Source: a virus
IMG/VR virus record: IMGVR_UViG_3300018422_000005
Location: 1-39,261 of that record
Direction: 5' to 3' (one strand)
DNA length: 39,261 bases
The position numbers and the translations under genes are program-made. Below, in pieces: positions 6,795 through 39,261 of this stretch. Position 1 is the stretch's first letter, and each line of letters begins with the position of its first letter. Under the pieces are notes generated by a model that saw only the letters and a list, made by a program, of their open reading frames with translations, was not told where the DNA came from and did no database searches.

Positions 6795-7048
6795 GGCGAG
6801 TGGCGTTCTGGAAGCGGGTCATGGCGATCGGGTACGCGATCGGCTGGGGTTGGCTCGAGAAGCAGGCGCGCACGCGGCACTTCCGCGCGCGGCTCGCGCT
6901 GGAGAAGTTCGACCGCGCTCGCGCGCTGGCTCGCGAGAACGAGCGCGACACGAGCGACGACCAGGACGCCGCGATCGAGGAGGACATCCGCCCGATCGTC
7001 CGCCGACCGCGCGCGAAGCGCGTGAAGAGGAGCGCCGAGGGTGGCTGA
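6791..7048 (+). CDS. small basic helical protein between terminase and portal
   Basis: An 85-residue product from GTG 6791 (GTGA overlap with the terminase stop), ending 8 bases inside the portal gene. It opens with a hydrophobic/aromatic helix (VAFWKRVMAIGYAIGWGWL), followed by a long charged helix and a basic tail (RRPRAKRVKRS). It could be membrane- or DNA-associated. No family is recognised. Confidence 0.6.
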   Translation: MRRVAFWKRVMAIGYAIGWGWLEKQARTRHFRARLALEKFDRARALARENERDTSDDQDAAIEEDIRPIVRRPRAKRVKRSAEGG

Positions 7049-26716: not shown

Positions 26717-27322
26717 GTGGCCACGCTCACGATCGACTCGACATACTCGCGCGACGTGCGCATCGCCCCGACCGCGGCCGGCAACGCGAACGACGGCAGC
26801 GACACGGTCGGCGTCGGCTCGTCGAACGACCGCAACTACCGCACCGGCATCAAGTTCCCGCTCACCGACGGCGCGCTCACGGGCGCCACGATCACCGGCG
26901 TCGAGCTGATCGTGAACGTGCTGATCGCAAGCGGGGTGAGCGCCGACTCGTGGTACGTCGGGCCCTACAACGGCGACGGCGCGGCCGACCCTAACTCGGA
27001 CACGGTCACGGTGCAGTACGGACGCTGCGCCGTGGCGGCCGACAACTACGGGACGTTCACGGACTTCCGCACCACGGGCTCGAAGACGCTCACGCTCGGC
27101 AACCCAGCGCCCGCCGACGTCGAGGCACTGATCGGCGCCACGTTCTCGATCGGCGTGCAGCAGCTCGTCGAGACGCTCGGCGGCGCGGTCCACTACATAG
27201 ACCTCGACGAGACCACGAGCGCGGCGCCGCCGCAGCTCCGGCTCACCTACACCCCGGCCGGCGCGACAATCCCTCCAGCGGTCGCGGTGCATCACCAGCG
27301 ACACCACAACGGAGCACTGTGA
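26717..27322 (+). CDS. beta-rich virion surface protein
   Basis: A 201-residue product from GTG 26717, four bases after the previous stop. The sequence (TYSRDVRIAPTAAG; RNYRTGIKFPLTDGALTGAT; VELIVNVLIAS; FTDFRTTGSKTLTLGNPAPA) is a jelly-roll pattern like carbohydrate-binding or DNRLRE-type surface domains. It opens the second fibre-type group, so it may be a tail accessory or receptor-contact protein. The C terminus is His-rich (VAVHHQRHHN). Confidence 0.55.
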   Translation: MATLTIDSTYSRDVRIAPTAAGNANDGSDTVGVGSSNDRNYRTGIKFPLTDGALTGATITGVELIVNVLIASGVSADSWYVGPYNGDGAADPNSDTVTVQYGRCAVAADNYGTFTDFRTTGSKTLTLGNPAPADVEALIGATFSIGVQQLVETLGGAVHYIDLDETTSAAPPQLRLTYTPAGATIPPAVAVHHQRHHNGAL

Positions 27323-27323
27323 C

Positions 27324-28208
27324 ATGACGTTGGTCCTCAAGCAGAGCACCGCGGTTGACGTCTTGATTGGGCCCTTCCTGGACCTGAGCGACGGATCAAC
27401 CGCCGAAACCGGCGAGTCGCCCGCGGTGAAGCTCTCGAAGAACGGCCAGGCGCTGGCGGCCAAGAGCGACGTCACGACGCCCGTGCACGACGCAGACGGC
27501 TACTACAACTGCGAGTTGGACAGCACGGACACGGGCACGCTCGGAACGCTGGTGCTTTCGGTGGCGGCCAGCGGAAACGCGCTCCCGGTGCGGCACGAGT
27601 ACCAAGTGGTGCGCGCGAACATCTACGATTCGATCTACGCGAACGCCGCGGCGTTGCAGGTCAACACGATCCAGATCGACAGCGTGAACATCAGCACGAG
27701 CACGGCCCAGATCGGCGTGAACGTCGTGAACGCCGCCGGCACGGCCTGGGGCTCGGGCGCGATCACCGCGGGCGTGATCGCCGCGAACGCGATCGGCGCG
27801 AGCGAGCTCGCGGCCGACGCCGTGGCGGAGATCCAGTCCGGGCTCTCGACGCTCGACGCGGCCGGCGTGCGCACGGCGCTCGGCTCGGCCGGGGACCTGG
27901 ACGCGAGGTTCGACGCGATCGAAGACGAGCTGCTCGTGATCGACAACTTGCTCGACGATCTGCCGACGCTGCTTGAGGGCATCATCTCCGGCTCGACCGC
28001 GGCCGGCACGCTCACCACGACGGCGGTTACGACGGATCTCACGGGCTACCTGGACGACACGCTGATCGGGCGCGTGATCGTGTTCCTGGAGGGCGACAAC
28101 AAGGGCGTGCCGCGCGCGATCACCGACTACACCGAGAGCGGCGGGCTGATCACGTTCGCTGCGCTCCCGGCGGTGCCGGCCGAAGGCGCCGCGTTCAAGA
28201 TCGTCTGA
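27324..28208 (+). CDS. tail fibre-like protein
   Basis: A 294-residue product from ATG 27324. The start (VLKQSTAVDVLIGPFLDLSD; ESPAVKLSKNGQALAAKSD; DGYYNCELDSTDTGTLGTL) matches a common phage and prophage family of fibre or base-associated proteins. Residues about 110-200 are an Ala-rich repeat stretch (AITAGVIAANAIGASELAAD). The last 70 residues form a conserved beta domain (DDTLIGRVIVFLEGDNKGVP). It probably trimerises and forms part of the adsorption apparatus. The biochemical role is not known. Confidence 0.65.
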   Translation: MTLVLKQSTAVDVLIGPFLDLSDGSTAETGESPAVKLSKNGQALAAKSDVTTPVHDADGYYNCELDSTDTGTLGTLVLSVAASGNALPVRHEYQVVRANIYDSIYANAAALQVNTIQIDSVNISTSTAQIGVNVVNAAGTAWGSGAITAGVIAANAIGASELAADAVAEIQSGLSTLDAAGVRTALGSAGDLDARFDAIEDELLVIDNLLDDLPTLLEGIISGSTAAGTLTTTAVTTDLTGYLDDTLIGRVIVFLEGDNKGVPRAITDYTESGGLITFAALPAVPAEGAAFKIV

Positions 28209-28552
28209 TGGCGCTCAGCGGCGCGGTCACGCAGCTCGCGCTCTACGGCGGGATCGGCCTGCCGTACCCACCGCTCACGGTGGAGCCGGAGCCGCCGACA
28301 CCGGCTGCGGTCACGGGTGGCGCGCACGGCGGGCGCTGGGTGCATCCGAATCGGCGCACGCTCGAGCGGGAGGGCGTGCCGGAGCGCGAGCCCTCACGCG
28401 AGCGTGCAAAACCGGAAGTGCAGGCCGCTGCCCCCGCACCGACACCGCCCCCTCCTACCTCTACCGGCGAGCTGGAGGTTCTCGCCACGGACCCGGCCGA
28501 GGAGGAGCTGCTGCTGCAGGCGGCGCTCGTGCTGCTCGGACTGGTGGACTAG
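28208..28552 (+). CDS. small proline-rich virion-associated protein
   Basis: A 114-residue product from ATG 28208 (TGATG overlap). The start MALSGAVTQLALYGGIGLPY is hydrophobic and is a pattern I have met as the last small gene after fibre genes. Residues 25-85 are Pro/Glu/Arg-rich and disordered (PAPTPPPPTSTGELE). It ends in a hydrophobic helix (EEELLLQAALVLLGLVD). Its stop codon lies inside the palindrome TGGACTAGTCCA. The function is unknown. Confidence 0.55.
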   Translation: MALSGAVTQLALYGGIGLPYPPLTVEPEPPTPAAVTGGAHGGRWVHPNRRTLEREGVPEREPSRERAKPEVQAAAPAPTPPPPTSTGELEVLATDPAEEELLLQAALVLLGLVD

Positions 28553-28660
28553 TCCAGCCAGCACTGGACACGACCGCCGACGCGGTCAGACCACTGAGAA
28601 AATAGCCTGTGATAAGGGATCGTTATCAGAATCACGCGCGCTCTCTGGACAGCGGGTCCA
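28545..28660 (+). promoter_or_regulatory. operator-like cluster of TGGAC inverted repeats plus TGATAA dyad
   Basis: Five copies of TGGAC or its complement GTCCA lie in 116 bases: TGGACTAGTCCA (28545-28556), GTCCAG-N6-CTGGAC (28552-28569) and TGGAC-N5-GTCCA (28646-28660). Between them is TGATAA-N7-TTATCA (28610-28628) in an unusually AT-rich stretch. The third TGGACA (28646-28651) is followed 17 bases later by TAAGGA, a poor -10. It looks like a control region for the two small genes downstream, and the first dyad could also fold as a terminator hairpin for the tail operon. Confidence 0.5.
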
Positions 28661-28681
28661 CCGACCCCTAAGGATAGGGGG

Positions 28682-28861
28682 ATGAGCACCTCATCCCGCC
28701 GCCCCATCCCCAAACGCGTCATCCTGACCTCTGACCTGCTCCGACCCCACGGCACCCGGGTCACGGTGTGCACGCTCGACGGCCGCGAGCTCGGGTCGCT
28801 CGACCGGCCGCTCGCCGAGTTTCTCCAAGAGGCGCTGGAGCGGAAGGCGGGCGCGGCGTGA
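28682..28861 (+). CDS. small hypothetical protein at the end of the late region
   Basis: A 59-residue product from ATG 28682 with GGATAGGGGG upstream. It is mixed beta/alpha (KRVILTSDLLRPHGTRVTVC; PLAEFLQEALERK). It is the first gene after the operator-like gap and is coupled to the next gene by GTGA at 28858. No family is recognised. Confidence 0.5.
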   Translation: MSTSSRRPIPKRVILTSDLLRPHGTRVTVCTLDGRELGSLDRPLAEFLQEALERKAGAA

Positions 28862-29058
28862 GCTACTCCGACGAGCGCAGCCTGATCCGCGGTCTCTTCG
28901 GCGTCCTCCCGCCCGGGCCGACGTGGCCGGCGAAGCGCCGCCGGCAGTGGCTTGTGGCGGCCGCGGCTGTCCTCGACGTCGTGTACCTCGACGAGGAGCG
29001 CGGAACGCTGCGCGGGCTGCTCGCCGAGCAGTGGTGCGGCGCGCTGCACGACGCATAG
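28858..29058 (+). CDS. small conserved phage protein
   Basis: A 66-residue product from GTG 28858 (GTGA overlap). FGVLPPGPTWPAKRRRQWLV followed by AAAAVLDVVY is a pattern seen in small proteins of many phages without known function; the helix AAAAVLDVVYLDEERGTLRG dominates. It is the last rightward gene before the convergent gap, so its mRNA end must lie at 29059-29138. Confidence 0.55.
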   Translation: MSYSDERSLIRGLFGVLPPGPTWPAKRRRQWLVAAAAVLDVVYLDEERGTLRGLLAEQWCGALHDA

Positions 29059-29138
29059 CGGCAGCGCCGCCAGCTCTGGCCGAGCACGCAACGCTGCCGC
29101 CCACGCGTGGCCCCCGGGGGCGCGGTCAGCTTACCACA
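29059..29138. terminator. convergent gap with several inverted repeats
   Basis: This 80-base gap separates rightward and leftward transcription. CGGCAGCG (29059-29066), right after the stop, is an exact inverted repeat of CGCTGCCG (29092-29099). Two perfect palindromes stand back to back: CCACGCGTGG (29101-29110) and GCCCCCGGGGGC (29110-29121). No U-tract is seen on either strand. The concentration of hairpins at a convergent junction supports a bidirectional termination zone, probably factor-assisted. Confidence 0.5.
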
Positions 29139-29501
29139 CTAATCGGTGTCGGTGTTACCCGCGCTGTACCGCCACTGTTCTCGGATTTTCCTGTCCGCTA
29201 GGTCCTCGACCGGCACCAGCTTCGCGAGGCCGTGCTTCGTGTACATCCGCACCGCGGCCATGAGCTTCCGCGCGTCCTCGACCTGCTCCGCGGTCGGGCG
29301 CGGGATCTCGACCAGCAGCGCGGCAGCGGCGCCGCATCCCTGACACGTGAGCGCGTCGGCGCGCGTGGTCATGTGCGCCTGCTTGGCGGTCATCTTGGGC
29401 GGGCGGTCGTCGACGTCGTGGCGGATCTTGCCGTCGACGCACGGGTGCCAGCGGCCGGGCCGGCGCGCGTTGCCGCAGTCGGGGCAGAGGGAGCTGGTCA
29501 C
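29139..29501 (-). CDS. small zinc-ribbon protein, last gene of the leftward operon
   Basis: A 120-residue product. GTG 29501 overlaps the upstream gene's stop (GTGA). An N-terminal zinc motif (SLCPDCGNARRPGRWHPCVD) and a second CxxC (TCQGCGAAAAL) lie before a helical C-terminal half (TAEQVEDARKLMAAVRMYTK). The two CxxC pairs could hold one zinc. Such proteins are often nucleic-acid- or RNA-polymerase-binding in phages, but no family is recognised. Confidence 0.6.
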   Translation of the reverse strand: MTSSLCPDCGNARRPGRWHPCVDGKIRHDVDDRPPKMTAKQAHMTTRADALTCQGCGAAAALLVEIPRPTAEQVEDARKLMAAVRMYTKHGLAKLVPVEDLADRKIREQWRYSAGNTDTD

Positions 29502-29839
29502 GCGTCGGGCTCCTGCGTCCGGTCGCGCTCCTCGAACGCGGGGCCACCCACCTGGCGCCGCCACTCCACGCGCAGCATCTGGACCAGATCGGGCAACGCG
29601 CCCTGCGGTGCCGCCACGCGGAACATGCGCACCAGCATCCCGAGCAGATGGAAGAGCACGATGCCCGAGCTGCCCTTCACGACGGTCGCCAGAATCGACG
29701 AGCTGGCGGCGATCAGCACGAGCGCGGGATCCTCGAGCCGGGTCTTCTGCAGTTCGGCCCACGCGCGGTCGCCGTGGCTCATCGCGATCGGCGTGAGCTT
29801 GCCCGTCACGCGCAGCGTCTTCTCGCGGTCGACGGCCAT
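29498..29839 (-). CDS. hydrophobic helical protein of the leftward operon
   Basis: A 113-residue product, ATG 29839 (ATGA overlap). Residues about 40-75 are hydrophobic (DPALVLIAASSSILATVV; GIVLFHLLGMLVRMF), possibly one or two membrane-inserting helices, followed by a charged tail. A membrane-acting toxin, exclusion protein or soluble helical bundle are all possible. Nothing visible decides between them. Confidence 0.6.
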   Translation of the reverse strand: MAVDREKTLRVTGKLTPIAMSHGDRAWAELQKTRLEDPALVLIAASSSILATVVKGSSGIVLFHLLGMLVRMFRVAAPQGALPDLVQMLRVEWRRQVGGPAFEERDRTQEPDA

Positions 29840-30504
29840 CAGGCGCTCCGCTCCCCGCACAGGCCGACGTGGTCGTCGAGGCGGCGCTCCAGCGCGTCGA
29901 TCCGCTCGTGTAGCTCCTCGAGCGCGGCGTCGCTGCTCGGCCCCACGACGCGCAGCCCCGCGTTCGGCCACAAGCCCGCGTCGCGGAGCGGCACGGTGAC
30001 CTCGCCCTTCGCCGCCTCCATCCGCGCGAGCAGCCGGTTGGCCTGGGTCGCGATCGGGCCGGGGTCGGTGTCGCGCAGCACCGCCGGCCTGTTCCCCCCG
30101 AGCCACGTCACGCGCAGCATGCCGTCGGGGTCGATCGCAGCCGAGAAGGCGGCGCCGTTCACCGCGAATTCCTGGGGCTCGCCCGCGGTGAGGATCGCGA
30201 TCCGGCGCCGCAGCTCGTCGCGCTCGGCGGTGAGGTCTGTCAGCTCGTTGACGACGTCCCTGAACTCCGCGCTGGACAGCGCGAGCGAGCGCCAGTCATT
30301 CTCGCGCGCGGCGAGGACCTTGCCGATGATCGGCGCCACGCGGTCGCTCGTCGGTCGCGTCGGATCCGGGCGCGCGACGTAGCGCGCGAGGATCCAGTCC
30401 GCGACCTGCCGCAGCACGATCGATCCCTCGGGAAAGAACTCGCCAAGGTCGCCGGCCTCCGCCAGCTTCCGCGCCAGCGCCTCGACGTCGGTAGGGTCGC
30501 TCAT
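29839..30504 (-). CDS. two-part hypothetical protein of the leftward operon
   Basis: A 221-residue product from ATG 30504 (ATGA overlap). Residues 1-60 are helical (DVEALARKLAEAGDLGEFFP). Residues 75-105 and 195-220 are coiled-coil-like (FRDVVNELTDLTAERDELRR; EELHERIDALERRLDD). Between them is a beta segment (AAIDPDGMLRVTWLGGNRPA). Coiled coils at both ends of a small beta domain suggest an oligomer. No enzymatic motif is visible and no family is recognised. Confidence 0.6.
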   Translation of the reverse strand: MSDPTDVEALARKLAEAGDLGEFFPEGSIVLRQVADWILARYVARPDPTRPTSDRVAPIIGKVLAARENDWRSLALSSAEFRDVVNELTDLTAERDELRRRIAILTAGEPQEFAVNGAAFSAAIDPDGMLRVTWLGGNRPAVLRDTDPGPIATQANRLLARMEAAKGEVTVPLRDAGLWPNAGLRVVGPSSDAALEELHERIDALERRLDDHVGLCGERSA

Positions 30505-30782
30505 CGCATCAGCTCCCTGTGCAGGCCGACGTGCACCGCGTGCGTGTCCTCGTGGAAGACGTGGCAGCGCCCGCAGTAGCGCTGCTCCACGTCGTTCTGG
30601 TTGTACGACGTGAGCCCGCAGCCGTTGCAGCGGATCGCGGGCAGCGGGCCGTCGATCAGCGTGTACCGCATCGAGCGCACGTGCTCGGTCAGGTGCGCGA
30701 GGATTGCGTCGCGCGCCTGCTCCGGTGACACCTCGGGCTCCGGCGCGAACAGCGACCGCAGCCAGCGAACCAGCCGGATCAA
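30501..30782 (-). CDS. small zinc-ribbon protein of the leftward operon
   Basis: A 93-residue product from TTG 30782, the only start forming the operon's standard 4-base overlap (TTGA). Amphipathic N terminus (IRLVRWLRSLFAPE), then IRCNGCGLTSYNQNDVEQRY and CGRCHVFHED, a four-cysteine zinc ribbon I recognise from small uncharacterised phage and bacterial proteins (CxxCG...HYCGxCHVF). It probably binds nucleic acid or a protein partner; the role is unknown. Confidence 0.65.
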   Translation of the reverse strand: MIRLVRWLRSLFAPEPEVSPEQARDAILAHLTEHVRSMRYTLIDGPLPAIRCNGCGLTSYNQNDVEQRYCGRCHVFHEDTHAVHVGLHRELMR

Positions 30783-31066
30783 GCCGCCGCCTCCTTGTGC
30801 ACTTCGTGCACGCCCACCGCCAGCTCGAGCCCGATCCCCTGGCGCATCAGGTCCGTGATCCGCGCCAGCGAGAAGCGCTCGCCCTCGACCGCGTGGTACT
30901 CGTGCAGACCACCGACGTAGTCGACGACGCGCGCGATCGTCTGCGCGCTGTTCAGCGCCACCAGGCACTGCCCGCGCTTCAGCGAGCGCGCCTTCTTGCC
31001 CTGCAGCAGGTCGTGCTTCGTTCGCATGTCCTGGTTCTCGATCAGGTGGACCATCCGGCACTTCAT
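30779..31066 (-). CDS. hypothetical protein of the leftward operon
   Basis: A 95-residue product from ATG 31066 (ATGA overlap). It begins with a basic part (KCRMVHLIENQDMRTKHDLL; GKKARSLKRGQCLVAL). Next come NSAQTIARVVDYVGGLHEYH and SLARITDLMRQGIGLELAVG. The pattern is mixed alpha/beta with no known motif. A longer reading from 31318 exists but runs antiparallel through the repeat-containing end of the upstream gene, so the overlap start is preferred. Confidence 0.6.
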   Translation of the reverse strand: MKCRMVHLIENQDMRTKHDLLQGKKARSLKRGQCLVALNSAQTIARVVDYVGGLHEYHAVEGERFSLARITDLMRQGIGLELAVGVHEVHKEAAA

Positions 31067-31665
31067 CCGGTGTTGCCTTTCAAGTCTGCACCGCACTGCG
31101 GGCAGAAGTTCAGAGACCGGAAAGATTGCAGATTCGCACCGCACTGCGGGCAGAAGTTCAGCGAGGTCTTGCGGGAGCGGGGAGCGTTCGCGATGGCGCG
31201 GGAGTTCGAAGGGCGGGGCACGCCGCCTGCGCGGGTGATCGGCTCGGTCGGAAGGGAGAGCTGACCGTTTGTGGGCGGCGCCGCTAGATCGCCGGCAATC
31301 GCGGGGTTCGTGACCCAAGATGAGAGCGTGGATTCAGCGATGCCAGTCTCCTTGCTGATGGCCCGCTGGGTGGTCTCGCCAGCGAGCACGCGCGCGACAA
31401 CGGCGCGCTTCGTCTCGAGCGAGTGGCTGGTGTAGCCACGGTTGCTACGAGTCGAGTTCCAGCCGCGCGCCGCGCGCGCCGCGTCTCCATCGTACGCCGG
31501 GTCGCCGCCGAGCCTCGGATTCATGAGCCAGCGGCGCAGCGTCGTGGCGTCGATCTCGATGTCTCGCGCGACGTGGGCCGCCACCTCGCCGGCCAGCACG
31601 CGCGCAACGACGGCGCGGCGGGTCGCTTCGTCGATCTCGCGGCGCTTGTGGCGCTTGCGGGTCAC
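31063..31665 (-). CDS. double helix-turn-helix, double CPxCG regulator
   Basis: A 200-residue product from GTG 31665 (GTGA overlap). It contains two related HTH units: residues about 13-50 (TRRAVVARVLAGEVAAHVAR, TTLRRWLMNPRL) and 83-122 (TKRAVVARVLAGETTQRAIS, STLSSWVTNPAI). Each resembles transposase- or resolvase-type HTH domains. The C terminus has two nearly identical zinc half-motifs (SLNFCPQCGANLQ and SLNFCPQCGADLK; Cys172, 175, 188, 191). It has no nuclease or recombinase residues, so it is not a transposase but a DNA-binding protein, probably a regulator made by internal duplication. It is the second gene of the leftward operon, next to a shared operator region. The longer frame from 32133 is a shadow. 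Confidence 0.75.
   Translation of the reverse strand: MTRKRHKRREIDEATRRAVVARVLAGEVAAHVARDIEIDATTLRRWLMNPRLGGDPAYDGDAARAARGWNSTRSNRGYTSHSLETKRAVVARVLAGETTQRAISKETGIAESTLSSWVTNPAIAGDLAAPPTNGQLSLPTEPITRAGGVPRPSNSRAIANAPRSRKTSLNFCPQCGANLQSFRSLNFCPQCGADLKGNTG
31088..31161 (+). repeat. 26-bp direct repeat encoding the duplicated zinc motif
   Basis: Identical 26-base copies lie at 31088-31113 and 31136-31161, offset by 48 bases (16 codons). They begin GCACCGCACTGCGGGC on the plus strand. They encode LNFCPQCGA twice on the minus strand. The exact identity at synonymous positions indicates a recent duplication or conversion. Confidence 0.85.
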
Positions 31666-31856
31666 GAGGCGCGCTTCTTGCGCCTCGGCTGCGGCTGGCG
31701 CTCCACCTCGGCGTCTGCCAGGTCGCGGAGCCATGCTGCCGCCGACTTGCCGGCGGCGCTCGCCACGGCGGTGTAGCGCTCTTTCTCGTCCAGTCGGACT
31801 GGAACCTTGATGATCTCGTCGCGGGAGGCTCCCGCGGGGAGGGCGTTTCTGGGCAT
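31662..31856 (-). CDS. ribbon-helix-helix repressor candidate
   Basis: A 64-residue product from ATG 31856. Residues about 14-53 match the Arc/CopG ribbon-helix-helix pattern: strand EIIKVPVRLD, helix KERYTAVASAAGKS, helix AAAWLRDLADAEVE. A basic tail ends RKKRAS. Such dimers bind short palindromic operators through the strand. It is the first gene of the leftward operon and lies next to the divergent promoters, as autorepressors usually do. The proposed -10 box ends six bases before the ATG, so the message may be leaderless, as for lambda cI from PRM. No ribosome site is visible upstream. Confidence 0.75.
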   Translation of the reverse strand: MPRNALPAGASRDEIIKVPVRLDEKERYTAVASAAGKSAAAWLRDLADAEVERQPQPRRKKRAS

Positions 31857-31862
31857 GGGGCG

Positions 31863-31891
31863 AGCCTACCGGGGGGCCAAAGGTTTGTCCA
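31863..31891 (-). promoter_or_regulatory. leftward promoter candidate
   Basis: Read on the minus strand: TGGACA (5 of 6 of TTGACA, 31891-31886), a 17-base spacer, then TAGGCT (31868-31863). The spacer contains CCTTTGGCC, the same motif as in the opposite promoter. Initiation about seven bases later would fall at or next to the ATG of the ribbon-helix-helix gene. Confidence 0.5.
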
Positions 31892-31961
31892 GTTCGGGCC
31901 CGCGGCGGCCGAAGAGGGCCCTGTGACACCGCTTGACGTTTGGCCAAAGGAATGGCCAAAT
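31875..31961. promoter_or_regulatory. GGCCAAA operator set shared by divergent promoters
   Basis: GGCCAAAGG occurs at 31875-31883 (inside the leftward promoter spacer) and at 31942-31950 (inside the rightward spacer). A third GGCCAAA lies at 31954-31960. The two rightward copies are palindromic or nearly so (TTTGGCCAAA). This is the arrangement expected of a bidirectional switch controlled by one dimeric repressor, for which the adjacent ribbon-helix-helix protein is the natural candidate. Confidence 0.5.
31933..31961 (+). promoter_or_regulatory. rightward early promoter candidate with operator in the spacer
   Basis: TTGACG (31933-31938, 5 of 6), a 17-base spacer, and CCAAAT (31956-31961) preceded by TGG as an extended -10. 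The spacer holds the palindrome TTTGGCCAAA (31939-31948), and a second copy, ATGGCCAAAT (31952-31961), covers the -10 box. The centres are 13 bases apart. A repressor on these sites would block polymerase directly. It should drive the genes from 31989 onward. Confidence 0.55.
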
Positions 31962-31988
31962 GGCGTTGTGGGGACGAAAGGGCAGGCG

Positions 31989-32342
31989 ATGACGAAGCGA
32001 GCGGCGAACGCGGTCCACTTGATCCTCGGCAACCGGCCGCTGTGTGGGGCCAAGCGCCCGAACGGTGGGCTGCACGGTGCCAAGCCTGGCAGCGGCTACG
32101 AGAGCGCAGTCGACTGCGAGCGCTGCCGAGCATCGGTGGCCCGCATGGCTCCGAAGCGCGCGCGAGAGAAGGCGAGCGACGCGACGGCGGCAGCCAGCCA
32201 GGAGATCAGCCGGTTGCTGCCGCTGCTCGACGACAAGGTGAGCCGGTCGGTCGACGCGGGGCTGAAGGGCGACTGGGGCCACGTCGGCGACCTGAACGAG
32301 ATTGTGAGCAAGCTGAAGCAGCTTGTCGGCGAGGAGGGCTGA
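31989..32342 (+). CDS. early hypothetical protein with Cys motifs
   Basis: A 117-residue product. ATG 31989 lies just downstream of the promoter and has GGGCAGG before it; the longer in-frame GTG at 31923 would start upstream of the promoter. The N-terminal part (VHLILGNRPLCGAKRPNG; SAVDCERCRASVAR) has a zinc-like CxxC. The C-terminal part is helical (EISRLLPLLDDKVSRSVDAG; LNEIVSKLKQLVGEEG). As the first rightward early gene it may be a regulator; no family is recognised. Confidence 0.65.
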   Translation: MTKRAANAVHLILGNRPLCGAKRPNGGLHGAKPGSGYESAVDCERCRASVARMAPKRAREKASDATAAASQEISRLLPLLDDKVSRSVDAGLKGDWGHVGDLNEIVSKLKQLVGEEG

Positions 32343-32344
32343 CC

Positions 32345-32656
32345 ATGACGAAGACGGTGGGACGGGGCGACGCGGCGAGCAACAGCATGCTCGCGGACCT
32401 TCGGGCGGCGCGGGCGGTGCGGCGGGCGACGAAGCGGGCGGAGCAGCACGGGCGCCAGGGATTCGAGCTGGGATTCGCGGCGAGCGACAACCCGCACACG
32501 GCGGGCACGCCCGAGGCGGCGGCTTGGGAGCGGGGGTGGGAGGATCAGCGCAACTGCAGCGACGAGGCGATGCTGCAGCGGCGGGTGCGCGCGATCGAGC
32601 GCAACGAGCAGGACGCCCTGCCCCCGCACAGCCCCTGGGCGAAGGGGGACGCCTGA
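32345..32656 (+). CDS. early hypothetical protein
   Basis: A 103-residue product from ATG 32345, two bases after the previous stop. Arg/Ala-rich helix (ADLRAARAVRRATKRAEQHG), then FELGFAASDNPHTAGTPEAA and AAWERGWEDQRN, and a polar tail. The GxxxGTPEAxAWERGW part resembles small ribosome modulation factor-like pieces seen in phages (single Trp, Gly-rich turn). No firm assignment is possible. Confidence 0.55.
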   Translation: MTKTVGRGDAASNSMLADLRAARAVRRATKRAEQHGRQGFELGFAASDNPHTAGTPEAAAWERGWEDQRNCSDEAMLQRRVRAIERNEQDALPPHSPWAKGDA

Positions 32657-33087
32657 TGCCGATGAACAGACCGACCACGGTGCGCCTCGGTGAGCGCCAG
32701 AAGGACGCGCTCTCGTCGCTTGTGCGCGAGGGCAGCTTCCGCCACGGCGGGCACTGGACGATCGGCACCCGCAGCATCGCTCAACGCATAATGGAGTCGC
32801 TCGAGCGCGCGGGCATGGCGCGCAAGCAGGGCAGGATCTTGATGCCGGCCACCCGGCGCGGCGAGGCGCGCTCGGTGACGGAGTGGGTCCCGACCGACGA
32901 GGGCCGCGCGCTCGGCGAGTCCTGGGAGGCCGAGCGCAAGCGCCGACGCGCAGAGAACGACCGCGTGTGTGCGGAGATCGCCCGGAAGGCTCGCCCCGGG
33001 CAACTGCGCGCACAGATCGCGTATCTCACGAAGCAACTGGCCGAGGCAGAGGCGGAGCTCGCCGGCCTCGATGAGGGGGACGCCTGA
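32656..33087 (+). CDS. winged-helix-like early protein with coiled-coil tail
   Basis: A 143-residue product from ATG 32656 (TGATG junction). Residues 8-95 read like a winged helix: RLGERQKDALSSLVREG, RSIAQRIMESLERAGMAR, then a wing and VPTDEGRALGESW. Residues 95-140 form a charged coiled coil (LRAQIAYLTKQLAEAEAELA). It could be a MarR-like DNA-binding regulator or a structural helper of the recombination genes. The fold is inferred from pattern only. Confidence 0.6.
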   Translation: MPMNRPTTVRLGERQKDALSSLVREGSFRHGGHWTIGTRSIAQRIMESLERAGMARKQGRILMPATRRGEARSVTEWVPTDEGRALGESWEAERKRRRAENDRVCAEIARKARPGQLRAQIAYLTKQLAEAEAELAGLDEGDA

Positions 33088-33443
33088 TGAACGTCAACGC
33101 GTACCTGCTCGTGCAGGTGGTCATCGACGAGGTGCGCCGCAAGCCTGCGCTGCTCGATCTTCCGCTGAGCGGCGTGCTGGACGCGATCTACCGCGCTTGC
33201 CCGCCCGGCGTGCATCTCGAAGGCGGCCCGCTTGCCTTCTGTCTGCGGCAGGAGTTCGGCACGCTGCTGCGCAAGTACCGCGCGCTCGAAGAGGTGGAGA
33301 CTGACGATGATGAGGCGATTTGTCACTGCGGCCACGCGAAGGCGTGGCACATGGCCGAGCGCTGCTTGGTGAACGCTTCCGACATGTCGCAACCGCGCTG
33401 CGGTTGCGAGGGATTCACGCGAGACGAGGAGGCTACTCGATGA
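33087..33443 (+). CDS. early protein with C-terminal zinc motif
   Basis: A 118-residue product from ATG 33087 (TGATG junction). The N-terminal 70 residues form a helical domain (AYLLVQVVIDEVRRKPALLD; LAFCLRQEFGTLLRKY). The C-terminal part, EAICHCGHAKAWHMAERC and CGCEGFTRDE, is a Cys/His-rich zinc site of the kind (CxCGHxxxxH) found in small phage proteins. It overlaps the exonuclease gene by four bases, so the two are co-translated; the function is unknown. Confidence 0.6.
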   Translation: MNVNAYLLVQVVIDEVRRKPALLDLPLSGVLDAIYRACPPGVHLEGGPLAFCLRQEFGTLLRKYRALEEVETDDDEAICHCGHAKAWHMAERCLVNASDMSQPRCGCEGFTRDEEATR

Positions 33444-34357
33444 GTTTCGTACGTCTGTGCGGCACCGACGACCGCGCCGCCTGGCTGAAGGCGCGGCGCA
33501 CCGGGCTCGGCGCGTCCGAGGCGCCCGCCCTGTTCGGGATCGGATTCCGGTCCCTGCTCGAGCACTACCTAGAGAAGACCGGTGACGAGCCCGAGGGCGA
33601 TGAGCCCGAGGAGGAGAGCGAGGTGCTGCGCTGGGGGCGCCTGCTGGAGCCGCTCATCCTGAACGAGTTCTCGCGCGAGACCGGCCGGCGCGTGGAGCAC
33701 GGCGGCCAGCTCCTGCGCTCGCGCGAGCACCCCTGGATGCTCTGCACGCTCGACGCCGAGCAGTTCTGCCCGAAGCGCAAGACGCCCGGGATCGTGGAGG
33801 GCAAGGCCACGCGCTGGCTCGCCGGCGAGTGGCTCGAAGGCGAGGTGCCGCGAAGGATCTGGATCCAGGTGCAGCAGCAGCTCGCGGTGACCGGGCGCTC
33901 GTGGGGCTCGGTGTGCGTGCTGCTCTTCGGCTCGCAGTTCCTCTGGAGCGACATCGAGCGCGACGACACGTTCATCAACGAGGCGCTGATCTCGGCCGGC
34001 GCCGACTTCTGGAAGCGGGTGCAGGAGCGACGGCCGTGCCCGCCCGACGGCACCGACAGCGCGCGCAAGGCGCTGCAGCGGCTCTACCCGGAGCACGTGC
34101 CCGGGAAGGTCGTGAACCTCGGCGGGGAGCTGGTCGAGTTCGACGGCGAGCTGCAGGCGCTGGAGAAGGACGCGAAAGCGATCAAGAGCCGAATCGACCA
34201 CATCAAGCAGTCGCTCTGCATGGCCATCGGCGACGCCGAGTTCGGCGCCCTTGCCAACGGCGTCACTTACAGCCACAAACTCCAGCACCGCGGCGCGTAC
34301 ACGGCGGAGGCAACCAGCTTCCGCGTGCTGCGCCGACACGCACCGAAGGGAAGGTAG
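33440..34357 (+). CDS. YqaJ-type viral recombinase exonuclease
   Basis: A 305-residue PD-(D/E)XK nuclease of the YqaJ / lambda exonuclease family, which degrades the 5' strand of duplex ends to expose single strands for annealing. Visible motifs: RRTGLGASEAPALFG (residues 20-33), LRWGRLLEPLILNEF with Glu70, LCTLDAEQF with Asp105, IVEGKATRW with Glu120 and Lys122, and QVQQQLAVTG with Gln144-147. The C-terminal third (LVEFDGELQALEKDAKAIKS) is a helical region common in this family. It is directly followed by recT, forming a two-component recombination system like Red or RecE/RecT. ATG 33440 overlaps the previous gene (ATGA), with GAGGAGG upstream. Confidence 0.92.
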   Translation: MSFVRLCGTDDRAAWLKARRTGLGASEAPALFGIGFRSLLEHYLEKTGDEPEGDEPEEESEVLRWGRLLEPLILNEFSRETGRRVEHGGQLLRSREHPWMLCTLDAEQFCPKRKTPGIVEGKATRWLAGEWLEGEVPRRIWIQVQQQLAVTGRSWGSVCVLLFGSQFLWSDIERDDTFINEALISAGADFWKRVQERRPCPPDGTDSARKALQRLYPEHVPGKVVNLGGELVEFDGELQALEKDAKAIKSRIDHIKQSLCMAIGDAEFGALANGVTYSHKLQHRGAYTAEATSFRVLRRHAPKGR

Positions 34358-34362
34358 CCAGA

Positions 34363-35412
34363 GTGGCCGAGATGAAGAGGAAGCCCGCGCCGACGGCGCA
34401 GGGCGGTGGAAGCGGGAAGGGCCCGGAGGACGAGGACAAGAGCGGCGTGATCGCCATGCTCTCGCAGCCGAAGATGATCGCGCAGCTCCGCAACGCGCTG
34501 CCCCGGCACGTGACGCCGGAGCGGCTCACGCGCATCGTGCTCACGAACCTGCGCATGACGCCCGACCTGCAGCGGTGTACGCAGGCGTCTCTGCTCGGGG
34601 CGATCATGCAGGCGGCGCAGCTCGGGCTGGAGCCCGGCGTGCTCGGCCAGTGCTACCTCGTGCCCTACCGACGGCGCTTCCGCGATCCGAGGACCGACAC
34701 GTGGCAGGAGGAGATGCTCGCGCAGCTCATCATCGGCTACCGAGGCATGGCGCAGCTCGCCTGGCGCTCGGCGCTGGTGCGGTCGATCGCTGCGCGCGCG
34801 GTGTACGAGGGGGACTTCTTCCTCTTCGACTACGGCGAGGACACGCTACAGCACCGGCCGAACGACGAGGACGACCCGGACAAGATCACGCACGTCTACG
34901 CCGTGGTGAATACCACGAGCGGCGGGCGCCTCTGGGACGTGATGACGCGGGCTGCGGTCGAGAAGGTGCGCGGGCGGTCCGCTGCCGCTGCATCGGGCAA
35001 GAAGGGCCCCTGGGACAGCGACTACGCGGAGATGGCGAAGAAGACCGTGCTGCGGCGGCTGTTCAAGCTGGCGCCGCAGAGCGCGGAGATGCAGACCGCG
35101 CTCGGGCTCGAAGACCAGGCGGACACCGGGGACAAGCAGACGTTCGAGATCGACATCCCGATGGACGAGTACACCGTGGACCGGGCGCCTGCGGCCGGGC
35201 CGACGCCGACGGCGCCTGACGACGTGCCGACGAGGATGCAGCTCGACGTGACCATCAACGAGCGGGCGGAGGAGTTCACGAATCCGGAGCGCGCGCGCGG
35301 GCAGATCATCGCGGTGCTGGAGCGGGAGTTCGGTCCGCTGCGCGAGCTGGCGGGGGAGAAGCTGCGCGAGGCGCTGGCGGAGGCGTCGATCGTCAAGGTG
35401 GACGTTTCCTAG
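34363..35412 (+). CDS. recT: RecT-family single-strand annealing protein
   Basis: A 349-residue protein that coats the strands exposed by the exonuclease and pairs complementary sequences. Family hallmarks are clear: LTRIVLTNLRMTPDLQRCTQ, LLGAIMQAAQLGLEPGVLGQ, CYLVPYRRRF, AQLIIGYRGMAQLAWRS and TVLRRLFKLAPQS. The N-terminal 25 residues are a flexible Gly/Lys tail. After residue 260 there is a family-variable tail (NERAEEFTNPERARGQIIAV) that may bind partners. The start is GTG 34363, 5 bases after the exonuclease stop; ATG 34372 is the alternative. Confidence 0.95.
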   Translation: MAEMKRKPAPTAQGGGSGKGPEDEDKSGVIAMLSQPKMIAQLRNALPRHVTPERLTRIVLTNLRMTPDLQRCTQASLLGAIMQAAQLGLEPGVLGQCYLVPYRRRFRDPRTDTWQEEMLAQLIIGYRGMAQLAWRSALVRSIAARAVYEGDFFLFDYGEDTLQHRPNDEDDPDKITHVYAVVNTTSGGRLWDVMTRAAVEKVRGRSAAAASGKKGPWDSDYAEMAKKTVLRRLFKLAPQSAEMQTALGLEDQADTGDKQTFEIDIPMDEYTVDRAPAAGPTPTAPDDVPTRMQLDVTINERAEEFTNPERARGQIIAVLEREFGPLRELAGEKLREALAEASIVKVDVS

Positions 35413-35655
35413 ATGGCCACGCGCGCAGAGATCGAGGCCGCGCTGGCGATGCGCGAGCGGAGCGCGCTGCACGCGGTCGACTCCGGGGAGCGCAGCGACG
35501 TCGCGACGATGCGCTTTCTCCTGTCCGCCCTGCAGGAGCGGGACGAGCTGCTGCTGGAGGCGGCGCCCTACGTGGACTCTGCGACCGGCGACGGTGAAGA
35601 GGCTGGGCAGCTTGCCTTGCGCATCCGCGCGCTGCTGGAACGAGGTGGGGCGTGA
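35413..35655 (+). CDS. small helical early protein
   Basis: An 80-residue product from ATG 35413, directly abutting the recT stop. It is all helical and acidic (AEIEAALAMRERSALHAVDS; TMRFLLSALQERDELLLEAA). It is coupled to the next gene by GTGA. No motif is recognised; it may be an accessory of the recombination genes. Confidence 0.6.
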   Translation: MATRAEIEAALAMRERSALHAVDSGERSDVATMRFLLSALQERDELLLEAAPYVDSATGDGEEAGQLALRIRALLERGGA

Positions 35656-36308
35656 GCCCGTACAAGCTGTGTAAGCATGGCAAGTGGGATAGCTGCGCAC
35701 ACTGCGCCGAGCTCGCGCGCGTCCGGCGAGACATGGAGGACTGCGCGTATCAGCGCACGCTGCTCACGTCCGAGCGCGACGCCCTCCGGGCGGAGAACCA
35801 GCGCTTGGCGGACCGCATCTGCGCGTTGGAGGGCCACCCGGGCGCGCACGCCGCTTGGCCGGTCTGTACGTACCAGCGCGAGCGCGACGCCCTGCGGGCG
35901 GAGCTGGAGCGCTTCACGCGCATGGTATCCGAGGGCTCGGTCGAGCTGGCGGCGCAGGTCGCGCACACGCTGGCGGCAAGGCGGGATGCAGACGCCCTGC
36001 GGCAGGAGATGGAGCGAGCCAAGGCGTCCGCCGTCTGGCAGCGCAACGCTCGGCTCCGCGTGCGCTGCAGCGACGAGGCAGGAATCTACGAGTGCGCCCA
36101 CGACAAGCCGTGCGAGATGTGCGTCCTGCGGGCGCTGGTCGCGGAGCTGGAGGCCGCGCTGAGGCCGTACCTCGTCGGCGGGTGCGGCCGGTGCGACACC
36201 GAGAGCGGCGACGTGTCGATCGACTGTCACACGTACGCAGATGCGGACGAGCCGTGCACGTGCCCGTGTCACGCCGCCCGCGCCGCCCTCGGCACGGAGC
36301 GGACGTGA
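35652..36308 (+). CDS. coiled-coil protein flanked by zinc motifs
   Basis: A 218-residue product from GTG 35652 (GTGA overlap). N-terminal zinc-like start YKLCKHGKWDSCAHC; a coiled coil over residues 25-150 with ERDALRAENQRLADRICALE and ERDALRAELERFTRMV, the ERDALRAE unit occurring twice; and a Cys-rich C terminus (KPCEMCVLRALV; GGCGRCDTESGDVS; EPCTCPCHAA). I have seen similar ERDALRAE coiled-coil genes in many phages, where they vary in length and have no known function. An oligomeric scaffold or nucleic-acid-bridging role is guesswork. Confidence 0.65.
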   Translation: MSPYKLCKHGKWDSCAHCAELARVRRDMEDCAYQRTLLTSERDALRAENQRLADRICALEGHPGAHAAWPVCTYQRERDALRAELERFTRMVSEGSVELAAQVAHTLAARRDADALRQEMERAKASAVWQRNARLRVRCSDEAGIYECAHDKPCEMCVLRALVAELEAALRPYLVGGCGRCDTESGDVSIDCHTYADADEPCTCPCHAARAALGTERT

Positions 36309-36478
36309 GCGCCGAGCTCGACCGCATGGTGCTGGAGGCGCGCGACCGTTACCGCACCGCGTACACGAAGTGGATGCGCACGAAGAACGGGAGCGACGTC
36401 CAGGCGCGCGTGGACGCGCACGACGAGCTGGCAGCGGCCGAACGCGCGCTGCTGGAGATCGGGAGGAGGGAACGGTGA
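36305..36478 (+). CDS. small helical early protein
   Basis: A 57-residue product from GTG 36305 (GTGA overlap). All helix with charged faces (AELDRMVLEARDRYRTAY; DAHDELAAAERALLEIGR). Short enough to fall under usual thresholds but tightly coupled on both sides. The function is unknown. Confidence 0.5.
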   Translation: MSAELDRMVLEARDRYRTAYTKWMRTKNGSDVQARVDAHDELAAAERALLEIGRRER

Positions 36479-36660
36479 AGCTCAAGATGCTGGAGCTGGA
36501 AGTGGAGCGCGTGAACGACGTGGCGATCGAGATCCGGCAGGCGGATCCGACCGGCTGCTCCGACACGCCCATTACCATCGAGGTGACGCCCGAGCAGGTG
36601 CCGTTCCTGATCGAGTGGCTGCGCGAGGCGGCGCTCGATCGCAGGCCGGATCCGCAGTAA
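36475..36660 (+). CDS. small alpha/beta early protein
   Basis: A 61-residue product from GTG 36475 (GTGA overlap) with the strong ribosome site GGGAGGAGGG just upstream. Two beta strands (LKMLELEVERVNDVAIEI; PITIEVTPEQV) and a C-terminal helix (PFLIEWLREAAL). A small compact domain of unknown role; last gene before a hairpin-bearing gap. Confidence 0.55.
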   Translation: MKLKMLELEVERVNDVAIEIRQADPTGCSDTPITIEVTPEQVPFLIEWLREAALDRRPDPQ

Positions 36661-36691
36661 CGCTCGCCGCGCCGCGCCCCCTCAACCTGCC

Positions 36692-36724
36692 CGCCCTCCT
36701 GCCGATGCATCGGGCAGGAGGGCG
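36692..36724 (+). promoter_or_regulatory. 12-bp hairpin that buries the next gene's Shine-Dalgarno
   Basis: CGCCCTCCTGCC (36692-36703) pairs perfectly with GGCAGGAGGGCG (36713-36724). The right arm contains AGGAGG (36717-36722), the ribosome site for ATG 36730. The 9-base loop starts with the palindrome GATGCATC. Folding would hide the site; it could also terminate the upstream transcript. The remaining bases of this 69-base gap show nothing else. Confidence 0.65.
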
Positions 36725-36729
36725 TGGGC

Positions 36730-37023
36730 ATGGCGCAGGACGGGATCCCGAACGGGAACGGGAATGGACGCTCGCCGTCGAGCACGGCCCGCCGCGCCGC
36801 GTCGCACACCGTCGTGTCGGGCCAGGTCGTCGGTGTCGCCAAGCTGCTCGAGGGATTCGGCCTCGACCCGCTGCAGGCGTACGTGTGCGCGCTCGGCTAC
36901 GGCGCCGTGATGGGCGCGGCCGGGAAGGTCGCGCGCGACGCGCTGCACGAGCACGAGACCGGCGTGGTGCGCATGGACGCGTTCGGGCTGTTCCTCGCAA
37001 ACCTGTTCGCGGCGCTCGGCTGA
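36730..37023 (+). CDS. small membrane-associated protein under hairpin control, holin-like candidate
   Basis: A 97-residue product. ATG 36730 is 7 bases after AGGAGG; GTG 36724 is in frame but too close to it. The first 25 residues are polar (NGNGNGRSPSSTARRAAS). A moderately hydrophobic segment (AYVCALGYGAVMGAAGKV) and a second amphipathic one (AFGLFLANLFAALG) follow. Two short hydrophobic helices, a hidden ribosome site and the next gene being a membrane-anchored protein fit a holin, a class that is tightly timed, but no holin family is recognised. Confidence 0.5.
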   Translation: MAQDGIPNGNGNGRSPSSTARRAASHTVVSGQVVGVAKLLEGFGLDPLQAYVCALGYGAVMGAAGKVARDALHEHETGVVRMDAFGLFLANLFAALG

Positions 37024-37220
37024 TGCGACGGCAGGTCGCGATCGGGGCGGTGTGGCTCGCGCTCGCCATGGCGTTCGGTGGCCTAGTGCTCCTCGAGCTC
37101 CAGCAGCGACGGCTCGGCTCGGCCCGCGCGGCGGTGCTGGGGCGCTGTGCGCAGCTGGATCCCGAGGAGCGCGCGTGCTGCCTGGGGCAGGTGCGGGCGG
37201 AGTACTTCGCGCCGCTGTAG
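37023..37220 (+). CDS. N-terminally anchored small protein, spanin-like candidate
   Basis: A 65-residue product from ATG 37023 (TGATG junction). N-terminal membrane span (IGAVWLALAMAFGGLVLL), then a charged helix (ELQQRRLGSARAAVLGR) and three cysteines (CAQLDPEERACCLGQV). The topology is that of inner-membrane spanins (Rz-like), but it is short and lacks a long periplasmic coiled coil. Coupling to the preceding membrane gene suggests a joint role in envelope disruption. This is a moderate inference. Confidence 0.5.
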   Translation: MRRQVAIGAVWLALAMAFGGLVLLELQQRRLGSARAAVLGRCAQLDPEERACCLGQVRAEYFAPL

Positions 37221-37225
37221 CGACT

Positions 37226-37465
37226 TCCGGCCATCGGTCGGGCTATGCTGGCCGGATCACCGAGGGGGGTGATGTTGGATTCCGCCACCGCCGTTAAAAG
37301 CGAACGGCCCCCGCCAAGGGGCCGAACGCGCATCACTCTGAGGGGCAGTGCATTCCGCGGAACGCAGCGACAGGATAGCTGCGTTCCGGCTGGGCTGTCT
37401 ACCCTTGAACGTGTCGGATCCGCTACGGGCGTAGCGCTGCACCCCCCTCGCAATTGCTGGGGGTG
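37226..37465 (+). promoter_or_regulatory. structured leader with six inverted repeats before the replication gene
   Basis: This gene-free stretch of about 240 bases carries perfect inverted repeats: TCCGGCCA-N15-TGGCCGGA (37226-37256), ATCACC-N6-GGTGAT (37256-37273), CGGCCCC-N6-GGGGCCG (37305-37324), CGGAACGCAGC-N9-GCTGCGTTCCG (37358-37388; overlapped by TTCCGCGGAA at 37353), CGCTACG-GG-CGTAGCG (37421-37436) and CACCCCC-N12-GGGGGTG (37440-37465). The last covers the likely ribosome site of the O-like gene. TATGCT at 37244-37249 is a possible -10 without a good -35. On the minus strand the third hairpin is followed by CTTTTAA, weakly terminator-like. Confidence 0.6.
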
Positions 37466-37468
37466 CTC

Positions 37469-38275
37469 GTGTCCGAGGCCGTCGTCCCGTTCGTCCAGTA
37501 CCCGGTCCATGTTCTAGAGGCGCTCGAGCAGACGCCGCTGCCCGGTCAGCACCGTCGCGTGTTCGATAGCGTGGTGCGGCTCACGATCGGCTGGCATCGG
37601 CAGTCCGATCGCATCTCGGCTGGTCAGATCAGCAAGCGGACCGGGATCCCGCGCCAGCATGTTGCGGACATGCTGGCCGACCTTGAGCGGTGGGGGCTGC
37701 TGATCGTCGAGCGCGCCGGCCATCGCCGGAAGTCGACGCTCGCCGTGCAGCACGTCGTGGAGCGGTGGCAGGTGGGCGAGACGACGCATGCCACGCGGGT
37801 GCGCCGCGGGGCATCTGCCCCTGCAGAGCGGGGCAGATCATCTGCCCCGCCAGAGCGTGACAGCCTGCCCCGCCAGAGCGTGACAGATCTGCCCCGCCAG
37901 AGCGGACACTCCAAAGAGAGAAAGAAAACCTCTGAAAGAAAGCCGGAGTTCGCTGTCGCGCTTCCGGACCGGACCCGGGAACGGCGCGTAGCCCGCTCGG
38001 TGGCAGGGCCATGGGGACACCAACCGAGACCGTCGCCCCAGGATCAGGAGCGCGCTCGTGCCGAGCTCGCCGCCTATCGCGAGACGCTGGACCGCTCGAA
38101 GCGGGCGGAGTCGAGGCGCAGGCGCGACGAGGGCACACCGATCACAGCGGAGGCGCTCGCCGTGCTCGAGCAAGCGAAGGCCGCGCGTGCGGCGAGCGAG
38201 CTCTCTGACGCCGCCAAGGCAGGCCTCGAGGGATTCTTCGGGTCCGCTGCGCTGCAGAAGGCGAGCGCGGGATGA
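37469..38275 (+). CDS. lambda O-like replication initiator
   Basis: A 268-residue protein. Residues 1-85 match the N-terminal domain of phage replication protein O: FVQYPVHVLEALEQTPLPGQ, RRVFDSVVRLTIGWHRQSDR, ISAGQISKRTGIPRQHVADM and LADLERWGLLIVER, a winged helix-turn-helix that binds origin iterons. Residues 105-150 are low complexity and are encoded by the iterons themselves. The C-terminal part is helical and charged (QERARAELAAYRETLDRSK) and would contact the helicase side. No helicase or loader gene (P, DnaC-like) is seen, so host DnaB must be recruited some other way. GTG 37469 follows GGGGG by 5 bases; GTG 37463 and TTG 37454 are alternatives. Confidence 0.82.
   Translation: MSEAVVPFVQYPVHVLEALEQTPLPGQHRRVFDSVVRLTIGWHRQSDRISAGQISKRTGIPRQHVADMLADLERWGLLIVERAGHRRKSTLAVQHVVERWQVGETTHATRVRRGASAPAERGRSSAPPERDSLPRQSVTDLPRQSGHSKERKKTSERKPEFAVALPDRTRERRVARSVAGPWGHQPRPSPQDQERARAELAAYRETLDRSKRAESRRRRDEGTPITAEALAVLEQAKAARAASELSDAAKAGLEGFFGSAALQKASAG
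37813..37945 (+). other. intragenic replication origin: iterons plus purine/AT-rich tract
   Basis: Three exact copies of CTGCCCCGCCAGAGCG start at 37842, 37865 and 37889, and a two-mismatch copy starts at 37815. The first two exact copies are followed by TGACAG. Between the variant and the first exact copy is an inverted repeat with one spacer base, CGGGGCAGAT-C-ATCTGCCCCG (37829-37849). Immediately downstream, 37909-37945 is an A-rich purine tract (AAAGAGAGAAAGAAAACC and onward), a plausible unwinding element. The layout mirrors lambda ori, which lies inside gene O with iterons followed by an AT-rich stretch. Confidence 0.78.
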
Positions 38276-38625
38276 CAGCCGCTCTCGCCGTGGAACACTC
38301 GACCGCGCACACGTTCAACGCGGCGATGCGCTGCAGGCGCTGCGGCGTGCCGTTCGACGACCGTGGTCCGACCTGCCGCGCGACGAAGAAGTGGGCCTTC
38401 CGTCGGCGCGACTCGCTGCTGCGCACCAGGCGCCGCGAGCTGCGCATGACGCAGGCCGAGCTTGGCTGGCTGCTGGGCGTCTCGGAGTACGCCGTCGCGA
38501 ACTGGGAGCGGGGCAGTGCGATCCCGTTCGGGCGCAACGCCAGGCGTCTCGAGCGCGCCCTCGGCTACCCGCTGCAGGAGCTGCTGCCCGTAGCGGCCGC
38601 ACCCGACGTCGCTGTCCCACAGTGA
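38272..38625 (+). CDS. zinc / XRE-family regulator
   Basis: A 117-residue product from ATG 38272 (ATGA overlap with the O-like gene). N-terminal zinc-like MRCRRCGVPFDDRGPTCR (Cys21, 24, 35) followed by a Cro/CI-type helix-turn-helix (residues about 46-100: RTRRRELRMTQAELGWLLGV, SEYAVANWERGSAIPF, RRLERALGYPLQELLP). It likely represses or activates phage promoters as a dimer. The gap just downstream holds two dyads, GTTGCAAC and GTTGA-N6-TCAAC, natural candidate operators. Whether it acts on the next operon or on the divergent region at 31900 is unknown. Confidence 0.8.
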   Translation: MTAALAVEHSTAHTFNAAMRCRRCGVPFDDRGPTCRATKKWAFRRRDSLLRTRRRELRMTQAELGWLLGVSEYAVANWERGSAIPFGRNARRLERALGYPLQELLPVAAAPDVAVPQ

Positions 38626-38657
38626 CCAGAAATCGGTGGGTTAGCTGAAGATCGACC

Positions 38658-38694
38658 TTGAAAGTTGCAACGACACGCGTTGATCTATGTCAAC
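38658..38694 (+). promoter_or_regulatory. promoter/operator candidate before the Acb2-like gene
   Basis: This is the most AT-rich part of the local sequence. TTGAAA (38658-38663) is a fair -35; CTATGT or TCTATG near 38684-38690 could be a -10 with a long spacer. Two dyads overlap it: GTTGCAAC (38664-38671) and GTTGA-TCTATG-TCAAC (38679-38694). GGGGGG precedes the ATG at 38710 as ribosome site. The region fits a regulated promoter under control of the XRE protein just upstream. Confidence 0.45.
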
Positions 38695-38709
38695 ACCGGG
38701 GGGTGACAC

Positions 38710-38943
38710 ATGGCAAAGCCAACGATCGCGGAGCTGCAGGCGCGCTTCGGACCGCACGAGCTGGACGGCGAATGCCTCGACCACGTGAGCGTGGTGAACG
38801 GGCTCGTCCTCGACCTGGCCGTCTCGCTGTGCGAAGTGGTGCCCGAGGGGCGACAGCTCTCGCTGGCGCTCACGGCGCTCGAGGAGGTCCGCATGCGCTC
38901 GAACGCGGGCATCGCCGAGCCGCTGCCGCTGGCGCGCGCCTGA
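38710..38943 (+). CDS. Acb2-like cyclic-nucleotide sponge candidate (anti-CBASS)
   Basis: A 77-residue, two-helix protein. Residues 45-69 carry PEGRQLSLALTALEEVRMRS and NAGIA, which closely fits the pattern I know for the small phage family with the Acb2/Tad1-type hairpin domain (PxSREKSLALTKLEEAxMWA, NAAIA). The N-terminal ARFGPHELDGE matches its RFxYHxP start, and the length (77) is near that of Acb2. Acb2 forms a hexamer that binds cyclic di- and trinucleotides made by CBASS immune systems and stops the effector. Substitution of the Trp (here Arg-Ser) is a difference from the common motif. The family call is from memory; ligand binding is inference. It leads a separate operon behind a regulated promoter. 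Confidence 0.6.
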   Translation: MAKPTIAELQARFGPHELDGECLDHVSVVNGLVLDLAVSLCEVVPEGRQLSLALTALEEVRMRSNAGIAEPLPLARA

Positions 38944-39206
38944 TGGCCAAGCAGGCGCCCGTTCCACGGACCGAGATCGAGCAGCGCGTGCTCGACGGCG
39001 CCGCGAAGGCGCGCACGGCACCGCCGATCCACGTGTCGACGGTGCTCGGCGACGGCGACGGCCGCTGGATCGGCGTGCGCTTCCGGCTCGACCCGGACGG
39101 CCGCTGGTCGGAGGTCTCGCGCACGGACCCCACGGGCCGCGCGTGGGCCGAGAGCTGGCTGGCCGAGGAGATCCACCAGCAGCAGGAGGCGAGGCGGGCG
39201 TCGTGA
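38943..39206 (+). CDS. small hypothetical protein
   Basis: An 87-residue product from ATG 38943 (TGATG junction). A helix (TEIEQRVLDGAAKARTA) is followed by a beta hairpin (RWIGVRFRLDPDGRWSEVSR) and a C-terminal helix (WAESWLAEEIHQQQEARR). It is coupled both to the Acb2-like gene and to the tiny gene at the window end. An accessory or defence-related role is possible only by association. Confidence 0.55.
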   Translation: MAKQAPVPRTEIEQRVLDGAAKARTAPPIHVSTVLGDGDGRWIGVRFRLDPDGRWSEVSRTDPTGRAWAESWLAEEIHQQQEARRAS

Positions 39207-39261
39207 AGGACTCGCGCTGGAATCACGTTCGGGACCTGCTGCTGGAGGCCGATTGCATCGA
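39203..39261 (+). CDS. 5' part of a tiny gene running off the window
   Basis: GTG 39203 overlaps the preceding stop (GTGA) and reads MKDSRWNHVRDLLLEADCI up to the last complete codon. Two bases (GA) remain. Adding base 1 of the window gives GAC and the frame continues to TGA at 32-34, a 30-residue protein in total. This supports circularity. Confidence 0.55.
   Translation, partial: MKDSRWNHVRDLLLEADCI

Follow-up and report, generated by a model that had tools for sequence, protein, structure and literature searches.

A probable lambda-type replication origin with GC-rich iterons inside the O-like gene of a 70% G+C phage

Near the right end of IMG/VR virus record IMGVR_UViG_3300018422_000005, whose full 39,261 nucleotides form the window analysed here, a cluster of GC-rich repeats lies within a protein-coding gene. 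Do these repeats mark a replication origin built like that of phage lambda, as an earlier note made from the sequence had proposed, or do they reflect something else? The gene that carries them (37454–38275, plus strand; its start codon is uncertain, with GTG at 37469 as the alternative) encodes a product that matches Pfam PF04492 (Phage_rep_O) at 43.4 bits against a cut-off of 28.7 (5.1e-11), and several O-like PHROG families match it as well. A PF04492 search of the record recovers the same gene at 2.7e-13. Judged by these profile matches the gene is a true PF04492 member, which upholds the placement of the repeats within an O-like replication initiator gene.

An AlphaFold model of the product, built from 16 relatives and numbered from position 37469, folds residues 13–93 into a winged helix with mostly high confidence. 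This N-terminal domain (37490–37729, plus strand), also matched by PF04492 and MarR_2, is presumed to bind the iterons. Its neighbours among PDB folds, every one with E above 0.001, include MarR/ArsR-type winged helices, plasmid initiator domains (4pt7, 5kbj) and centromere-binding winged helices, and sequence matching to solved structures gave nothing convincing for the O-like protein. The C-terminal part is modelled as helical. Between the two, confidence is low across most of residues 106–165, including the stretch encoded by the iterons, which is predicted to be disordered.

The 16-mer CTGCCCCGCCAGAGCG occurs in three exact copies, starting at 37842, 37865 and 37889, and in a copy with two mismatches starting at 37815; no further site with up to two mismatches exists across the whole 39,261-base record. 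The earlier note had counted these same copies, three exact and one variant, but its 16-bp direct-repeat unit does not hold. The unit spans at least 22 bp, since CTGCCCCGCCAGAGCGTGACAG is identical between copies 2 and 3, and the consensus TCTGCCCCGC-CAGA-GCGGGGCAGA is an imperfect 10+4+10 palindrome in which inverted-repeat arms flank a CAGA core common to all four copies. The repeat is a hyphenated palindrome of 22–24 bp.

Four such iterons, the fourth of them weak, lie on the plus strand within the gene, right behind the N-terminal domain, with copy-to-copy spacings of 27, 23 and 24. Iteron 1 (CTGCCCCTGCAGAGCGGGGCAG, 37815–37836) has outer arms that are perfect over 7 bp, or over 9 bp with the flanks ATCTGCCCC/GGGGCAGAT; the inverted iteron half-site that had been listed as an extra element (37828–37838, minus strand) is simply its right arm. 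Iteron 2 (CTGCCCCGCCAGAGCGTGACAG, 37842–37863) and iteron 3 (37865–37886) share one sequence in different reading frames. Iteron 4 (37889–37910) keeps an exact left arm and core, while its right arm is degenerate, as if one base were missing, and runs into the A-rich tract that follows. Paired arm positions number 8/10, 7/10, 7/10 and 4/10 in copies 1 to 4. Among the 39,238 24-mers of the record, 52 have at least eight arm pairs and 416 at least seven. For any single copy this is modest evidence; the copies, however, share one register.

To what extent could the protein sequence alone account for the repeats? Among 300 synonymous recodings of the O-like gene, drawn with the record's own codon usage, none contained four copies and none three exact ones; 299 had at most two copies, and a single recoding had three. 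The copies are also read in two frames, as claimed previously for those spaced by 23 and 24 bases: copies 1 and 2 encode SAPAERG and SAPPERD, and copies 3 and 4 encode LPRQS in another frame. Were the repeats a recent tandem duplication within a fast-evolving linker, devoid of any DNA function, one could understand why iterons 2 and 3 are identical across 22 bases and why they sit in a region predicted to be disordered and hence tolerant of insertions. Such an event would fit poorly with copies that are palindromic, unevenly spaced, distributed over two frames and adjoining the most A-rich tract of the record.

That tract, a presumed unwinding region at 37904–37943 on the plus strand, lies directly 3′ of the iterons and tops all 40-mers of the record for A content, bearing out the purine tract noted before. 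The nearly coincident 40-mer at 37902–37941 ranks second in the record for A+T, at 0.57 against a mean of 0.30; the iterons are thus followed by an A+T-rich tract, though one with merely 57% A+T. The tract opens with a GACAC(tc)CAAAGA junction that resembles lambda's GGACACAAAAGA, and comparison across relatives reveals a recurrent ACAC(A/C)AAAGA junction from lambda to environmental phages, with GACACTCCAAAGAG in the record studied here. Elsewhere, at 28595–28634, lies the 40-mer with the record's highest A+T content (0.62); it contains the inverted-repeat-like GTGATAAGGGATCGTTATCA and is a possible promoter or att site.

In lambda, O dimers bind the hyphenated inverted repeats of ori and an adjoining AT-rich region of 39–40 bp opens (PMC6022878, PMC5043065). 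Stx phages carry six such iterons (PMC7466680), and binding of an initiator dimer to each iteron has been demonstrated in both lambda and Stx phages (PMC6022878, PMC7466680). Lambda (NC_001416) resembles the phage studied here in having four hyphenated-palindrome iterons, in several frames, behind the O N-terminal domain, and after them an A-rich tract on the coding strand. The two arrays differ in detail, with three frames and spacings of 20, 24 and 23 in lambda against two frames and 27, 23 and 24 here. The letters of the iterons, as the earlier note had remarked, are GC-rich and unlike lambda's (CTGCCCCGC-CAGA- versus ATCCCTC-AAAAC-), the arms are longer and less perfect, the tract has 57% A+T where lambda's has 73%, and no P gene lies downstream. 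Compared at the level of sequence, the iterons retain the geometry of lambda iterons written in GC-rich letters.

How general this arrangement is was examined in distant PF04492 relatives from gammaproteobacteria, Nitrospirota and environmental phages, comprising lambda, Gifsy-2, PAJU2, phiES15, Yersinia and Pseudoalteromonas phages, loci in Chromohalobacter, Vreelandella, Nitrospiraceae and Thermodesulfovibrionales genomes, and PF04492 matches from two phyla. Nearly all clear members carry repeats right behind the N-terminal domain; the units are mostly palindromic, their letters vary by lineage, and adjacent copies are as a rule 20–25 bp apart. Most of the arrays surpass 40 recodings of their own gene. 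The four-base palindrome centre is the best fit also in PAJU2, PunY3, Gifsy-2, L148, L245 and L254, and A-rich sequence follows the last repeat in most members. Gifsy-2, PAJU2, phiES15, Yersinia vB_YenM_21.09 and the Pseudoalteromonas Y3 phages thus share with the studied phage a PF04492-type N-terminal domain followed by lineage-specific palindromic iterons, but differ in having 2–7 copies and an annotated P, DnaC-like or helicase gene next. The order of N-terminal domain, palindromic iterons, A-rich tract and C-terminal part, likened to lambda ori from the start, therefore recurs in lambda and in almost all distant relatives examined. Taken modulo three, the pooled spacings are spread over every class (31, 20 and 18), and frames are often mixed; an iteron array in more than one frame appears, from these genes, to be normal for the family and no oddity of the studied gene. 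As exceptions, L246, L229, L247 and L260 gave no convincing repeat array. Weak PF04492 matches that fall short of the cut-off, among them L250, L251, L263 and L267, lack iterons; they were rejected as O relatives and are probably other winged-helix proteins.

The nearest N-terminal domain found, at 38% identity, belongs to the environmental phages L131/L132 (IMG/VR). These phages have the same domain, palindromic iterons and an AT-rich tract, but their gene is confined to the domain and their iterons are non-coding, ahead of a helicase-like gene. In L131 (region 2950–3500) the O-like gene ends behind the N-terminal domain, after 115 aa, and is followed in non-coding DNA by five palindromic repeats (about ATGTGTTGATTTCGACACAT) spaced by 24–26 bp, then by the AT-rich tract and the helicase-like gene, in what amounts to the lambda plan in split form. 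Because the L131 array lies in non-coding DNA, the repeats are DNA elements, coding only by happenstance in lambda and in the studied record. The recoding test, the mixing of frames throughout the family and this non-coding array all bear out the proposal that conservation acts on DNA. The comparison with relatives also weighs against tandem duplication, since palindromic iterons of unrelated sequence occupy the same position in almost all relatives and, in L131, such an array stands outside the gene; we consider that explanation very unlikely.

Two further functions for the sites must be weighed. The array could serve as operators, or as a centromere-like array, for the O-like protein or for the HTH protein encoded at 38272–38625, and so act in transcription or partition without marking a replication start. 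MarR-type and centromere-binding winged helices are indeed among the fold neighbours, and the HTH_3 gene lies immediately downstream of the O-like gene. A gene interior is nevertheless an unusual operator location and an array in coding sequence beside an A-rich tract is precisely lambda's origin plan, which leaves this alternative highly improbable. The palindromes might instead act as mRNA hairpins through which expression of the O-like gene is controlled, in keeping with a region that folds better than its shuffles (z = −2.9). Yet any DNA palindrome yields hairpins automatically, the arms are imperfect in copies 2–4, and DNA palindromes are kept in relatives despite varying copy number and sequence; a hairpin function is barely credible.

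The gene family, the repeats, their palindromic geometry, the A-rich tract and the presence of the same plan in relatives are direct observations, and with them in hand we infer origin activity, dimer binding, opening and the helicase step. The locus is very probably a theta-type origin of a GC-rich phage within its O-like gene. Dimers of the O-like protein would use their winged-helix N-terminal domains to bind the four palindromic iterons, assembling an O-some whose strain would open the A-rich tract just downstream; helicase would then enter via the C-terminal part of the protein. What the iterons encode is no more than a floppy linker, which would leave their DNA free to be kept for binding. 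The 57% A+T of the tract, the imperfect right arms (4/10 pairs in iteron 4) and the failure to find a P, DnaC-like or DnaB gene count against the origin reading, and the GC skew of the record has no clear turning point near 37.9 kb.

A P, DnaC-like or DnaB-type gene lies directly downstream in several relatives; here, searches with PF06992, PF01695 and PF03796 across all 39,261 bases of the record, which may be incomplete, matched none of these families. L213 likewise lacks such a neighbour, its next gene encoding RusA. Because a P-type partner was sought and not found, the locus is assigned to PF04492 origins and not to the lambda O-P replication module, and for the same reason helicase might be recruited either by a host loader or directly. 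We hold it doubtful that this is an intragenic lambda-type origin of a high-GC phage with neither a helicase loader nor a helicase of its own, where the helical C-terminal part of the O-like protein would recruit the host helicase.

The locus is a well-supported, ordinary example of O-type intragenic origins, a design already known, here with GC-rich iterons. It carries the plan of the lambda origin over to a phage of 70% G+C that has almost no relatives among the public phage records searched. The domain, the short-centred palindrome, the 20–25-bp spacing and the coding-strand A-rich tract emerge as the fixed parts of the plan and the arm letters as its free part. Recognition rules can be tested on a set of O domains that each come with iteron letters of their own.

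No close relative was found. Positions 27001–39261 have no DNA similarity to phage records, scanning viral contigs with one protein at a time (the O-like protein, terminase or RecT) returned no relative, and a search of viral contigs for three spaced CTGCCCC copies gave no O-like gene by profile at the loci examined among the matches listed. Terminase and portal (5310–9194) match just one phage record, from Silvanigrella aquatica, at 23–29% identity; the phage with this shared portal has no O-like gene by profile at 1e-4. Elsewhere in the record, 33829–35412 encodes a RecT-family single-strand annealing protein whose first 200 residues fall outside the matches, and the product of 1396–2691 is ParB-like in its N-terminal part and includes a DNA methyltransferase part (phrog_498, 7e-149). 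A GC-rich inverted repeat with 12-bp arms and a 9-base loop (36692–36724) is intergenic and terminator-like in shape. The small gene at 38710–38943 encodes an Acb2/Tad1 hairpin domain (PF24729, 2e-9) and probably counters CBASS/Thoeris defence as a cyclic-nucleotide sponge. Finally, a frame at the right end (39204–39261, VKDSRWNH...) would run on into 1–33 and reach its stop codon shortly past the left end, which hints at a possibly circular record.
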